17,733 bases of DNA, from positions 1-17,733 of the forward strand of contig JADHYX010000436.1 in NCBI GenBank assembly GCA_027604685.1. Reading direction: 5' to 3'. The notes beneath the pieces are model-generated. The model was not told the origin of the DNA, made no database searches, and saw only the letters and a program-made list of their open reading frames with translations. A program made the translations under genes and the position numbers. Positions within the stretch are counted from its first letter, which is position 1. Each line of letters starts with the position of its first letter. Shown here piece by piece: positions 4,700-17,733 of this stretch. This stretch comes from Lobulomyces angularis. Its lineage: Eukaryota > Chytridiomycota > Chytridiomycetes > Lobulomycetales > Lobulomycetaceae.

Positions 4700-7600
4700 A
4701 TGGATCTAAACAATGTTTTTAATGAACTAACAAAAGCTTCTTCATTAAATACTGAGATTAGAAAGGAGGGAGAGGAAATACTTAAACAAATGGAAACACA
4801 TCCCAACTTTTTAAAAAGTCTGGTACTTATTTACTGTAACAAGAATTTGGATTTAAAAATAAGATTTTTGTCAATTGCGTATTTCAAAAATGGAATTGAC
4901 AAGTATTGGAGGAAAACTGCGAAATTTCCAGTTAGTGAAATGGAAAAAAGTGAAATAAGGGAACTTCTTCTATCAAATTTTCAAGAAGAGGAAAAGAAGT
5001 TGGCTACTCAATCCTCTGTGGCTATTGCCAAAATATCAAGATTTGATTACCCTCTTTACTGGTTCCTTTTTTAGTTTTTTTTGGTTTAAAAATTTTATTT
5101 TAATTTTGTCTTTTTTTAGGCCTGATTTGTTGCATAGATTAATGAACAACATTCAACATAATGCAGCCAATAATAATAGTATTCTTGTGCAGCAGAATTG
5201 CCTTATTACATTTCACCAGGTCATTAAAACCCTCTGTTCTAGATCCTTAATGAGTAGTAGAAAAATGTTGCAACAGGTAATTCTTTTTTTGGATTTATTT
5301 TTTTATTTTCTGTATTTTTTCTTTTTTTTTTTTGCTTTTACTTTAGCTGGCACCTGATATACTTTCTTATTTGACACAAAACTTTTATTCAAATTTAAAT
5401 TTATTTTTATCAACTGTTGAAGGAAATACATCTCCTGATGAAAAAATTAATTCAATAAATTTTTTAAAATCTTCTACCATAATATTAAGAACATTAAGAA
5501 GATTATCACTCCATGGATTTAAAGATTTTGAAGCAAATGAGGACAATGTCCGGCTTTTTGGTAGTTTACTTGAATACTTAAAAAAATTTTTGCAACTGAG
5601 GTTAATTTATAGTAACAGCGGTAGTTTACTGACAAGCATTGACTTATTTATATTAAAAATTGGGAAGTTTTACTTGGAAATAGTTAAAGAAAAACCCGTG
5701 AACTTTCTTTCCACTCCGAATTCAATTTTAGTTATCAAATATTATTGGAGTCTTTTAGATGCATACTTGCAAGATGAAACTAAAGAATTTGCTATGTATG
5801 AAAGGTTTTTGGTTCAGGGGATGATTATTATAAAATGTTTAATTAAAAATAGTGATTTTACTCTGGTTAGAAAAGGTAATGAAAAAAAAAAAAATGATTT
5901 AAACTGTTCTTTATTTTTTCCAATAGATGAAGATACTGAAAAGAGGAATCAAATAAAGCAGTATCTTACTGTTGAATTTTTCACACCTGATTTTGTTGAC
6001 AAAATGCTAAAAACATTAGTAACAAAGTACTTAGTTATCGCAAAGGAAGATTTGGAACACTGGCAAGATGATCCTGAGAGTTTTGTACAAGAAGAGGAAG
6101 CAGATCACTGGGAATACAATATAAGGGTATTTTAATATTTGAATTTTTTTAATATTAAAATTAAACTAGGCATGCACAGAAAAATTAATAATGGATTTAT
6201 TTACTAAAAATAAAGAAATTTTATCACCGGTAGTTATTTCAATGTTAAGCGCAGTTTCTGGTAATGTAAAATGTTGTTTAATATAGTCTAAAGAAAAGGA
6301 ATTTTATTTTTCTAGAAAATGCTTGTGTTGATCTGAAATCGATTCTTTTGAAAGAAGCTGTATACCGCACTGTGGGGTTAGTCTCTCATGACCTTTATAA
6401 TCATTTGGATTTTGATAACTGGTTTAATTCACGATTGATTGCTGAATCAACAAATCATCAGCATAAGTAAATCATCGAAATAAATTTCTGTATTGTTAAT
6501 GATAGTTTACTTTTTCTTCCTGAAGTTACCATATAATTAGGAGGAGAATAGCTGTGGTAATTGGAAACTGGATTTCAGTTAAAGCCTCAAAAGAGATCAG
6601 AGGAAGTATTTATACTGTGCTTCTAAGCCTAATGAAAAAAGAAGAAGATCTATGCACCAGATTAACTGCGGTTTACAATTTAAAAATATGCGTAGACGAT
6701 TGGGATTTTGAAGTAGATAAATTTTTTAATTACTTTGAAACTAGTTTAAACTTATTTTTGAGTTTAATTAATGATACCGAGGAATTTGAATCCAAAATTA
6801 AAGTTTTAAATTGTCTATCTGTTATAATTGAAAGGATGGAAGAAAAAGTAATTGAATAAAAAAAAAACTAAAAAAGATAAATTTTTTACTTATCACTTTT
6901 GTATATCTAGATTTTACCGTTTGCAAGAACAATTACCTCAATTTTACCCGATTTATGGACCTCTTCTGAAGGACAGCATATGTTCAGATCCGCCATTATT
7001 GTGATTTTAAAAAGTTTAGTTAAATCTTTGAAAGGGGAATCACTACATCTTCAAGAATTCGTCGTTCCACTCATTCAGAGTGGTGTTGACACAACACAAG
7101 TATAACGAAAATACTTTTAGTATTTTTAATGTTATATTTATAGCCTGGACATATTTATTTGATAGATGACGCTATCGAGTTGTGGTTGTCTGTGGTCCAA
7201 AATTCACCGCAACCAACTGAAGTATTATTCGCACTTTTACCATTTGGAATTAAATTAATGGAATATGGAACCGATAGTTTGAAGGCAATTTTAAAAATTG
7301 TTGAAGCTTATATCCTCTTGAATCCTTTATCTGTATTACAGGTAAACACCAAATTGATTTTTTGATTTTTTTTGAAAAATTGCATGTTTTTTGATTGTTT
7401 TTTCTAGATTTATGCTATTTCAATTTTTACTTCGTTATCTCAGTTAATTGGTTCTTTAAAACCGGAAGCATCAAAAAGTATTCTACATTTGCTAGATGTA
7501 ACAATTCAAGTTTGCTCAAGAGACTTGAATTTATTAAAACCATTAGAAGAAGTGCTAAGCTCTACAGGATTACTGACAAAGCTCTTAGAGCTAATCTTAT

Positions 7601-13799: not shown

Positions 13800-15843
13800 T
13801 TAAATTTCCTTTTTATGCACATCCTTTGGAACAAAAGGAGTTTTTAGAGTATCACAGCATGCCGCAACTAAAGCCGCACCTGTTTAAAGAATTAGATGGT
13901 GAAAAAATAGTTATTTTTTAACCTTGTCCTGAACCATCTCGAACTTGTTCAAACACTATGTTTTCGGCAGAAATTCCAACTAGTTCCAACAAGGCATCCC
14001 TCATTCTACTGGTAAAATGTGGGTAATGCTCAAATACAGAACCATCAATGGCCACAGTACAACCTTAAGAAGATATTAAAGTTAAAAAATGCATAGTATT
14101 ACCATCCAGCCTATTTATTAAAATTAAAATCGAAGCAATTCCGGCTAAAGTTAGTCTTGCTGCTCTAATGCCAACCAATTCGCATATTTCTTTTACTAAA
14201 AGTAAAACGTAAGTTACAAAATCATTTTTTTAACTTATTTTTATTTTTATTTTTATATTATACCATATTCTCGGTCCGTTAGACTTGTATTATATATTTG
14301 AAAAAAATTTTCCAAAATGGTTTTTGTATCAATTAAATCCGTGGAATGGTCTCTTTCAATTCTACTCAAAAAAGATGTTTCGAATGACCACTTTTTTTCT
14401 AACAAATGAAATGAGCTACCTCCAAACAAATTGTATTTTTTTGCCAGATCTAACAAAATAAATCGCACAATTTCACCTTTATGTTGTTAAAATTAAAATT
14501 TCATTTTTTGTAGAGCTGTACCTAGATACATTCCACTAACCATTTTTTCGAAAACTTGGGAATTTGGTGCAACAGATGAAGAATCAACTAAGTTATCATA
14601 CTCTGTTATAGGAAGTATTTTTTTTCCTGGAATAGAATAAATTCAAGAATTTTTTTTTTTTAAAAAAAAAACCATTATCAAAAGCTCCCCATTCCGTATT
14701 AATTATCATTTTACCTCCTTCAGGAACCTGACCTTTCCATTTTGGGATATTTTTCAAGTTTTCCACCTATTTTTTGAATATAAGTTAAATTTTTACCAAC
14801 TTATTTTTACATAAGCAGCATTTGTCCCTGTTCCTAAAATTACACCAATTCTCGTTTGTGCATCACGATACGCCTGCAAGATTAACGTTCCAACGGTATC
14901 TAAACCAAATATTTTTTTGAGTTAAATTTCAAGGTATCCATACCATTACTAAAAGAAAGAAATATTGTTAACCAAACATAAATAAGAACATAATTACATA
15001 ATCGAGTTCACAGTTACATTAATATTCTTTTTTATTAGCGCTTGGTTAAGTAAATGCACCACATCATTTCCCTGGATTGAAAAATATTAAGACATTAAAT
15101 TTGTGATTATACCACGACTCCTTCGCATGTAAAACCTTTGTTCCACAGCTCAAGAGTTCCTAATAAAGACTTAATAAAGTTTTTGCTGCCTAAAACATAC
15201 CAGAACCAATTGATTTTTGTTCAACAGGAAAACTAAATGTAAATCCCATCTTTAAATTATCATTAGAGAGATTATACTCGTCTAAAAATATCTTTATGCA
15301 GTCAGCTACAAAGTCAAAAAGGTGTGTCCCACTTGCTTTCTTTATTTCATCAGAAATCTTAAATTTTTTCTGCTTCATTTTAATAACTCCTTTTCCTTTT
15401 AAATACACTTGGCATACTCTCAAGTTCGTACCCCCTAAATCCAACGCAAGATAGGTTCCTGTTTCCTCCCCAGTCGGCAAAAACTGAATGTAAGAGGGAA
15501 TCATTTTTAAATCGTATTCATCGGATGTTAGGCCTTTCTTTAATTCTCTAACATAAACAAAAATTGATAAAAAATTTCCCAGTTAAAGTTAGAATTACTT
15601 GAGCATACTAAAAACCACATGTCTTAATTTTTTTGTGTGTACTGTGAATTCTTTCCTAATTGAATCCTATGAATTAAACCAAAAAAAAATTATACAGTTT
15701 ATGTGATTGAAAGTTGCAAGAGCTCATACCATTTTTAAGTCTAAACTATTTTTCGTTCTATTGGATGTAGCATAATTAATTGGAATAGCAGCTAAGCGGA
15801 GGCCAACTAGTAGTCCAGCAGTAAAAGTAATTATTAAATTCAT
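13800..15843 (-). CDS. HK: Hexokinase with N-terminal hydrophobic segment
   Basis: Thirteen exons on the minus strand: 15843-15730, 15666-15599, 15547-15201, 15159-15113, 15071-14998, 14948-14944 (5 nt), 14899-14811, 14766-14673, 14626-14522, 14476-14264, 14195-14103, 14063-13923 and 13879-13800, giving 489 aa, the usual length of a fungal hexokinase. It phosphorylates glucose and related hexoses with ATP. Visible motifs are the phosphate loop LDLGGTNLR (D97 to R104), the sugar-binding GFTFSFPVEQ (162-171), the catalytic NDTVGT (N218, D219), the GTGTNAAYVE loop (241-250), NTEWGAF (271-277) and a C-terminal adenosine segment around DGSGQGAAL (459-467). Residues 3-22 are hydrophobic and followed by a basic/polar stretch, suggesting a membrane anchor or signal peptide. 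An in-frame ATG ten codons upstream (15873) is an alternative start that would repeat the MNLI beginning. Introns are 39-68 nt, several with TTAAC branch motifs. Confidence 0.95.
14944..14948 (-). other. Five-nucleotide micro-exon (TAATG) of hexokinase
   Basis: The exon lies between a 49-nt intron (14997-14949; TTAAC branch motif, acceptor ttttag) and a 44-nt intron (14943-14900; donor gtatgg, TTTAAC, acceptor tttag). It supplies the last base of an Ile codon, all of Asn218, and the first base of catalytic Asp219. If it is skipped, the downstream frame shifts and the invariant ND pair is lost; including it restores VNSIINDTVGT, the expected hexokinase sequence. Confidence 0.85.
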
Positions 15844-17023: not shown

Positions 17024-17733
17024 TTAGGTGTATCTTGATCCTGATCCTAATTTGTGATATTCGTTCGAAACATCTTGAGCAAGTTTGAGATGTGAGATAT
17101 TCATCAGAGCCAACCACATTAAAGCGTAAACCTCTTGCTTTCTGATAAAGTGTTCTTGAAAAGGCCGAATGAAGCCAAGGAAGTCCTTTTTAGATACCAA
17201 ATTTAGCATCGCCAAACACAAACAAAACGGAATTAATTTCTTCTTCAGTTAATTCCCTACGTTTTGGAATATCCGCCAATTTCAATAAGTCATCAAAAAG
17301 TTTGTCAAATTGTGATCTTTTCTTTTTTTCTACCTTCCAATTATTAGATAAATTTCTTCTTGAAGAGAAATAATTCGCAAGGTCTTTTTGATGCTGCAAC
17401 CTAGTTTTATAATCTTCCACCAAATTAATCCCACTTGACTTGGTGGTACTCAAGTTCATCCCTAAAATCTTGCAGTCCTGAATACAAGAATCCTTTTCTC
17501 GCCTTTAAATTCTTTCTAGTGCCCGTGGTAAATGTCAAATAAGCACACAAAAGTCCTTGCAAAAGTATTCAAAAGTTCTCAACTCCAAGGATTTTGGTAA
17601 CAAATATATTTGTGCATGGACGTAGTTTTTCAACGACTGACAAAAAACGAAATAAAATTTAATGTTACACAAAAATTATACCTGGCAAGAGTAGCGAAAA
17701 CTACTCAGGAATAATCGGAATAATAGCTCTTTA
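17024..17733 (-). pseudogene. 3' part of an unrecognised gene, with apparent frameshift
   Basis: Minus-strand pieces: 17733-17682 (17 codons), a 45-nt intron 17681-17637, 17636-17547, a possible 69-nt intron with a weak gtgctt donor (17546-17478), then an open frame from 17477 reading DCKILGMNLSTTK. That frame remains coding-like through LTEEEINSV and then meets a stop at 17190. The frame one base over continues naturally from about 17221 (CLAMLNLVSKKDFLGFIRPF) to a stop at 17024. Skipping one T near 17220-17230 would join them into one helical C-terminus of about 65 residues. I could not name the family. It may be a pseudogene, a sequencing indel in a T-rich stretch, or an unusual intron. 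The 5' part lies beyond the window, and its first piece matches the left end of the window in inverted form. Confidence 0.45.
17620..17733 (-). repeat. Right copy of the inverted repeat
   Basis: This is the reverse-complement partner of 77-190, containing the intron 17681-17637. It touches the window edge, so the repeat may continue outside. Unlike the left copy it has an open frame (ELLFRLFLSSF, intron, SLKNYVHAQ). Confidence 0.8.

Follow-up and report, generated by a model that had tools for sequence, protein, structure and literature searches.

The window analysed here, a 17,733-nucleotide (nt) stretch of the chytrid Lobulomyces angularis (contig JADHYX010000436.1, assembly GCA_027604685.1), carries on its minus strand HK3, a hexokinase/glucokinase gene in which five bases, TAATG, very probably a coding exon of their own, contribute to the codons for the active-site Asn-Asp pair. 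The genome of this member of the Lobulomycetales comprises 20.8 Mb in 533 contigs, and Hexokinase_1 matches were found in it at HK3 and at two further places, HK1 (L001) and HK2 (L002). Rebuilding and translating the HK3 exon chain gave 13 coding exons separated by 12 introns of 39-68 nt each, and the 489-residue product of this full model is identical to the deposited protein P0001, glucokinase [Lobulomyces angularis]. The product scores 241 bits with Pfam Hexokinase_1 and 284 bits with Hexokinase_2 and matches Protein Data Bank (PDB) chains of hexokinase-2 and hexokinase-1, the hexokinase-2 alignment being gapless at the N218-D219 motif. With both domains and the active-site pair in place, HK3 is a member of the hexokinase family. 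The parts of the gene that matter for what follows are these:

13800-15843, minus strand: HK3, hexokinase/glucokinase gene of 13 coding exons and 489 amino acids (aa), identical to P0001 and matched by Pfam.
14998-15071, minus strand: exon 5, 74 nt, whose last bases, AT, are codon positions 1-2 of Ile217.
14949-14997, minus strand: intron 5, 49 nt, GTAATT...TTTTAG, with a branch-like TTAAC.
14944-14948, minus strand: exon 6, the micro-exon TAATG, giving the last base of Ile217, the whole of Asn218 and the first base of Asp219; needed for identity with P0001 and for the Asn-Asp pair.
14900-14943, minus strand: intron 6, 44 nt, GTATGG...GTTTAG, with a branch-like TTAAC.
14811-14899, minus strand: exon 7, 89 nt, starting ATACC, whose first bases, AT, complete the Asp219 codon; encodes D-TVGTLILQAYRD and onwards.

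Once spliced, exons 5, 6 and 7 read ATT AAT GAT, that is, Ile217-Asn218-Asp219, with the Ile217 codon split AT/T by intron 5 (phase 2) and the Asp219 codon split G/AT by intron 6 (phase 1). An earlier sequence-only reading had proposed these two introns and the exon between them, and its lengths, positions and letters all proved exact on the window sequence. Downstream of exon 7, intron 7 (window 14767-14810, minus strand) has to start at 14810 (GTAAAA), which joins AAY to VENLKNIPKW, as in relatives; a start at 14800 (GTTGGT) was rejected, as stops follow shortly.

We enumerated the structures that could connect exon 5 to exon 7, holding the exon 5 start and the exon 7 end fixed and allowing GT or GC donors, AG acceptors and introns of at least 25 nt. 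Eight one-intron and 62 two-intron structures were in frame and free of stops. The motif ND[TS]VGT was encoded by none of the eight and by three of the 62, and all three contain TAATG, which bears out the sequence-only claim that only inclusion of this exon yields the Asn-Asp pair. The three structures share the same second intron, and the two alternatives among them use GC first donors and lose further residues. TAATG thus has the structural marks of an internal coding micro-exon (at most 15 nt): it lies between canonical introns and is needed for both the frame and the conserved protein.

The frequency with which such an arrangement arises by chance was estimated with the flanks fixed, by searching for AG-NAAYG-GT, in which NAAYG restores both the frame and the pair, and requiring 34 nt or more for each sub-intron. 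When the 98 nt were put through 20,000 dinucleotide shuffles, this pattern occurred in nine of them; among 405 GT(94)AG stretches taken from the plus strand of a genome sample (20 stretches of 10 kb each, one of which, with 43% N letters, was excluded to leave 190 kb), it occurred in one. Any AG-N5-GT occurred in 303 shuffles and 27 stretches. These frequencies bear on the possibility that HK3 is a pseudogene in decay, its micro-exon having arisen by chance. The length of the HK3 branch would favour such decay: in a gene tree of 39 of the 120 listed homologues, picked by hand and run with 200 bootstrap trees, it amounts to 1.89 changes per column against a median of 0.28 for the end branches. 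We nevertheless consider a pseudogene barely credible, given the rarity of the pattern among the shuffles, a 489-aa frame that is intact over 13 exons, two Pfam domains far above their cut-offs and the retention of family-wide motifs.

Conservation of the encoded pair was examined next to these structural results. D219 is present in 17 of 17 aligned sequences from zoosporic fungi and N218 in 16, the exception being a model from Clydaea vesicula, P0002. Among the 120 homologues listed, of 5,724 found (P0001 included), Asn precedes D-[TS]-[VTA]-[GA]-T in 118; the two others are P0002, which has Ser at this position, and P0044, in which the motif was not found. HK1 and HK2 both encode LVNDTVG with no intron inside the motif. 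Judged by the common motif, N218-D219 of HK3 presumably corresponds to Asn204-Asp205 of human glucokinase, and K184 presumably to its Lys169. In human glucokinase, Asp205 is the proposed general base, Asn204 and Asp205 contact glucose, and Asn204, Asp205 and Lys169 are described as active-site residues (PMC2706991).

The Clydaea vesicula protein P0002, a glucokinase of 393 aa, deserves attention because the window encodes every letter of it once some introns are placed differently than in the full HK3 model. In the region of the micro-exon, the difference comes down to one feature:

14900-15200, minus strand: single 301-nt intron that reproduces P0002, removing exons 4-6 (42 codons) and leaving the protein without residues 177-218.

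If this deposit were correct, exon 3 (ending at 15201) would be joined directly to exon 7 (from 14899), exons 4-6 would be intronic, and Asp219 would be kept. The join is in frame, and the exact encoding of P0002 by the window DNA speaks for it. On the other hand, the structure drops 42 residues that are spanned by the other 16 of the 17 aligned sequences, including a WNKGF-like stretch and N218, and it calls for a 301-nt intron where the median is 50 nt. P0002 also uses another start ATG and another first-intron acceptor, and it has the look of a prediction error. We therefore judge the Clydaea structure highly improbable; its gap is most likely due to a predictor that could not place a five-base exon. 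Two further Clydaea vesicula hexokinases, P0046 and P0055, are exact translations of L. angularis L001 and L002, so that all three Clydaea hexokinases examined are encoded exactly by L. angularis DNA. Finding identical proteins under two genus names points to mislabelling or mixing, of a culture or of an assembly, or to a single species.

To place the splice signals of introns 5 and 6 in the context of the genome, we used a simple gene model of our own making, seeded with the introns of HK1 and HK2 only and trained on the genome sample without the window (71 genes, 378 introns). Sample introns have a median length of 50 nt, and 279 of the 378 measure 34-60 nt; their donors include GTAATT in 18 cases and GTATGG in four, and 149 end in TTAG. 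A version including the window held 415 introns, of which 406 remained for the calculation of percentiles after removal of the hexokinase introns. Against these 406, intron 5 ranks at the 16th percentile for its donor and the 66th for its acceptor, and intron 6 at the 69th and 46th. Each intron carries one branch-like TTAAC, ∼19 nt from the end in intron 5 and ∼22 nt in intron 6. The window-free model picked both micro-exon introns unaided, and the path through TAATG led the best path lacking the micro-exon acceptor by 5.5 nats and the best path lacking its donor by 1.8 nats.

The path that comes second by this small margin of 1.8 nats is itself an alternative structure, in which intron 6 is partly coding: exon 6 extends to 14906 and is followed by a 32-nt intron (14905-14874), in frame and with loss of the DTVGTLILQ stretch. 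Forbidding the micro-exon donor makes this the model's best path. It would remove D219, T220, G222, T223 and L224, each of which is invariant in 17 of 17 rows; it is absent from the motif-giving structures enumerated above; and its 32-nt intron falls below the first percentile of intron length (34 nt). An extended exon 6 is the possibility to which we give the least credence of all.

Several observations weigh against TAATG as a normally included exon. The donor of intron 5 is weak, and 23% of random GT dinucleotides score equally high. The 98-nt intron that skipping would require is within the range of this genome, where 32 of the 378 sample introns reach 98 nt or more. Among 416 exons predicted by the gene model, seven internal ones have zero length and another 13 measure 15 nt or less. 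The evident errors of the model comprise these zero-length exons, two genes with an internal stop codon, an HK3 acceptor at 14450 instead of 14477 and one wrong acceptor in a RecQ gene. Because the model predicts other micro-exons, some of them spurious, its support on its own is weak, and homology is the stronger evidence. A Clydaea deposit of the same gene omits TAATG, and both deposited proteins, P0001 and P0002, may be mere software predictions. Finally, the tree leaves gain and loss of the two introns unordered, with HK1, HK2 and HK3 together on one side in 10% of bootstraps. Having weighed these points, we conclude that TAATG is very probably a genuine micro-exon of an intact HK3 gene that is normally always included.

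The route by which this exon would be spliced is suggested by site scores and lengths. Both introns are complete, with donor, branch-like motif and acceptor, and of typical length, and are therefore probably intron-defined: the splicing machinery would recognise each of them as a unit and would not have to define an exon of five bases. Introns 5 and 6 would likely leave one after the other, and once either was gone skipping would be impossible, as the micro-exon would then lie within a 79-nt exon (exons 5 and 6) or a 94-nt exon (exons 6 and 7). Skipping would have to pair the weak intron 5 donor with the intron 6 acceptor across 98 nt, bypassing a nearer acceptor and a stronger donor. We infer that TAATG is constitutively included in the HK3 mRNA.

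The sequence-only reading had also pointed out that skipping would shift the frame, which holds, as the skipped form meets an early stop and encodes a truncated product of 228 aa, and had suggested on this basis that splicing could act as an on/off switch. Inclusion or skipping of the micro-exon would then turn HK3 on or off, for example with sugar supply. In addition to the frameshift, the weak intron 5 donor is compatible with such regulation, and there is a precedent in a 20-nt micro-exon of Trichoderma Xlr2, for which inclusion is seen when glucose is absent and no expression when it is present (PMC11121469). Truncation, however, is a generic outcome of mis-splicing across HK3: a premature stop results from 12 of 12 single-intron retentions, and the 11 internal exons include seven whose individual skipping breaks the frame. 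In this respect the micro-exon does not stand out as a control point. Further, HK1 and HK2 lack the micro-exon and have the motif free of introns, so that hexose phosphorylation by the cell need not depend on exon 6 of HK3. Nor was RNA structure beyond chance found in the 151 nt around exon 6 (z-score +1.0; folding was equal or better in 173 of 200 shuffles). Overall, a regulated switch is unsupported and appears very unlikely, and constitutive inclusion remains the explanation we favour.

As to origin, the micro-exon probably results from intron crowding, with only five bases left between two short spliceosomal introns in a region that both paralogues code uninterrupted. Because the motif is intron-free in HK1 and HK2, either the lineage of HK3 acquired the two introns or they disappeared ahead of the split between HK1 and HK2; we lean towards gain in HK3. 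Compared by eye, the 12 intron positions of HK3 include none in common with HK1 and one in common with HK2 (before GAAL, phase 1), and HK1 and HK2 have six positions in common. An origin of intron 6 by tandem duplication, suggested by GATACC within intron 6 and again across the exon 6/7 junction, was rejected, as its score of 14 against exon 7 is equalled or exceeded by 136 of 350 control introns, each set against its own downstream exon. Likewise, we saw no introner-like spread for 11 of the 12 HK3 introns, which are no more similar to other introns than 40 random sample introns are (95th percentile 44); intron 10 scores 53. Comparison of related species, which the sequence-only reading had put forward for dating the micro-exon, is uninformative in the case of Clydaea: hexokinases that L. 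angularis DNA encodes exactly offer no independent date.

Beyond HK3, the gene model predicted 29 internal exons measuring 1-27 nt, spread over 20 genes, and six of these genes were compared with Pfam or PDB (the L004 kinase without its tail). Six of the 13 predicted exons of at most 15 nt were assessed: four found support in homology, one of them once its acceptor had been shifted, one was backed by a repeat only and one was an artefact. The homology-backed cases lie in two genes:

L015:6263-6279, 6341-6344 and 7560-7574, plus strand: RecQ1-like helicase gene, exons of 17 nt, 4 nt (GGAG) and 15 nt.
L021:7490-7501 and 7315-7328, minus strand: PDAT-like acyltransferase gene, exons of 12 nt (VWAR) and 14 nt (AYDW and part of the next Arg), in a conserved stretch.

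In the helicase gene, the Walker A motif MPTGGGKS is assembled from the 17-nt exon, the 4-nt exon and the opening bases of the exon that follows, whereas the 15-nt exon, for which the model's acceptor was moved by hand, completes GRAGRDGFDSDC with the GRAGRD motif. PDB DNA helicase Q1 aligns without gaps over both stretches, and among the 120 homologues listed PTG[GA]GKS occurs in 113 and GRAGRD in 119. Removal of the 12-nt exon from the acyltransferase lowered its LCAT score from 195.7 to 181.1 bits; among its 120 listed homologues, GYWVW occurs in 58 and A[AS]YDWR in 118. No protein named Lobulomyces or Clydaea was among the best 120 for either gene, the top identities being 50% for L015 and 47% for L021, in contrast to the hexokinase homologues listed, which include proteins of both. 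Their absence fits a broken or missing annotation of the two genes, bearing in mind that models much shorter than the query fall outside the length limits of the search. The exon backed by a repeat is a predicted 5-nt GAATG, exon 9 of 10 in a zinc-finger-like gene (L021:3474-5437, minus strand), which restores WN of an internal repeat (CIKWN/CFNWN).

Four exons per 190 kb would extrapolate to ∼440 genome-wide (Poisson interval 119-1119), or to ∼220 (26-789) when counted by genes, figures that serve as a pointer rather than a count as they come from four exons in only two genes of a small sample. It is a tentative but serious possibility that the genome of L. angularis, an early-diverging fungus, is rich in micro-exons, with hundreds of exons of at most 15 nt, several of them in catalytic motifs such as the hexokinase N-D pair and the RecQ Walker A motif. 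Such exons would arise where short introns are densely packed, would be spliced through intron definition, and would for the most part be absent from the deposited annotation or distorted in it.

Elsewhere in the window, the translation of positions 17025-17189 (minus strand) contains DEYLTSQTCSRC and matches Pfam PF07282 (Cas12f1-like TNB domain) with an E-value of 1.1e-4 and a score of 22.8 bits, which falls short of the curated cut-off (26.3). The segment could be a remnant of a TnpB/Fanzor-like mobile-element gene.

HK3 offers a clean example of an exon of five bases without which an active-site codon would be incomplete. The gene also urges caution with annotation, as one DNA has given rise to two contradictory deposited proteins, P0001 and P0002. 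If the wider pattern proves true, the Lobulomycetales would provide a simple short-intron system for studying how the spliceosome copes with exons below the size that exon definition requires. Some L. angularis genes that look absent or cut short would then be artefacts of annotation.

A literature search for a hexokinase micro-exon gave no mention of hexokinase in the 20 papers listed of 91 matching ones, and a search for chytrid micro-exons gave no papers. The sequence-only reading had placed the exon close to the lower limit known, which overstates the case: exons of 1 nt have been reported in Arabidopsis (PMC4674806) and Fusarium (PMC12940212). The Fusarium CYP621A P450 genes offer a close likeness, a tiny exon in a conserved fungal enzyme motif that was deduced by homology because its flanks misfit the frame and whose omission breaks the enzyme; they differ in that their exon is 1 nt long and supported by 20 orthologues and RNA reads, whereas that of HK3 is 5 nt long and was read from the DNA of one gene (PMC12940212). 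P450 genes of Phanerochaete chrysosporium, whose short exons (the shortest 6 bp), some of them within conserved motifs, lie among frequent small introns of 45-55 bp (PMC1184071; PMC12940212), are similar in layout but form a basidiomycete P450 family, whereas the present case concerns a chytrid hexokinase and, seemingly, other genes. In plants, APC11 of Arabidopsis has a constitutive 1-nt exon (PMC4674806), and small micro-exons are often missed by annotation (PMC8831610); these are backed by RNA, whereas the HK3 exon was read from the genome. The 4-bp micro-exon of MPC1 resembles TAATG in having a length that is not a multiple of three and in its constitutive inclusion (PMC9929638), the latter being our expectation for HK3, in which the shortness of the fungal introns would favour intron definition. 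Trichoderma Xlr2 shares with HK3 a fungal micro-exon in a gene of sugar metabolism, but its exon is 20 nt long and its glucose-dependent inclusion comes from RNA sequencing (PMC11121469). Stwintrons, too, are crowded pairs of introns, in which a splicing element of one intron is split by the other (PMC12403724, PMC8469720), whereas the HK3 introns are complete and have coding bases between them. We rejected a stwintron here, as neither intron shares its donor, branch-like motif or acceptor with the other, and removal of the 98 nt as one intron breaks the frame. Very small exons are thus already on record in plants and fungi, some of them in conserved enzyme motifs, and TAATG shares the structural marks of that kind.
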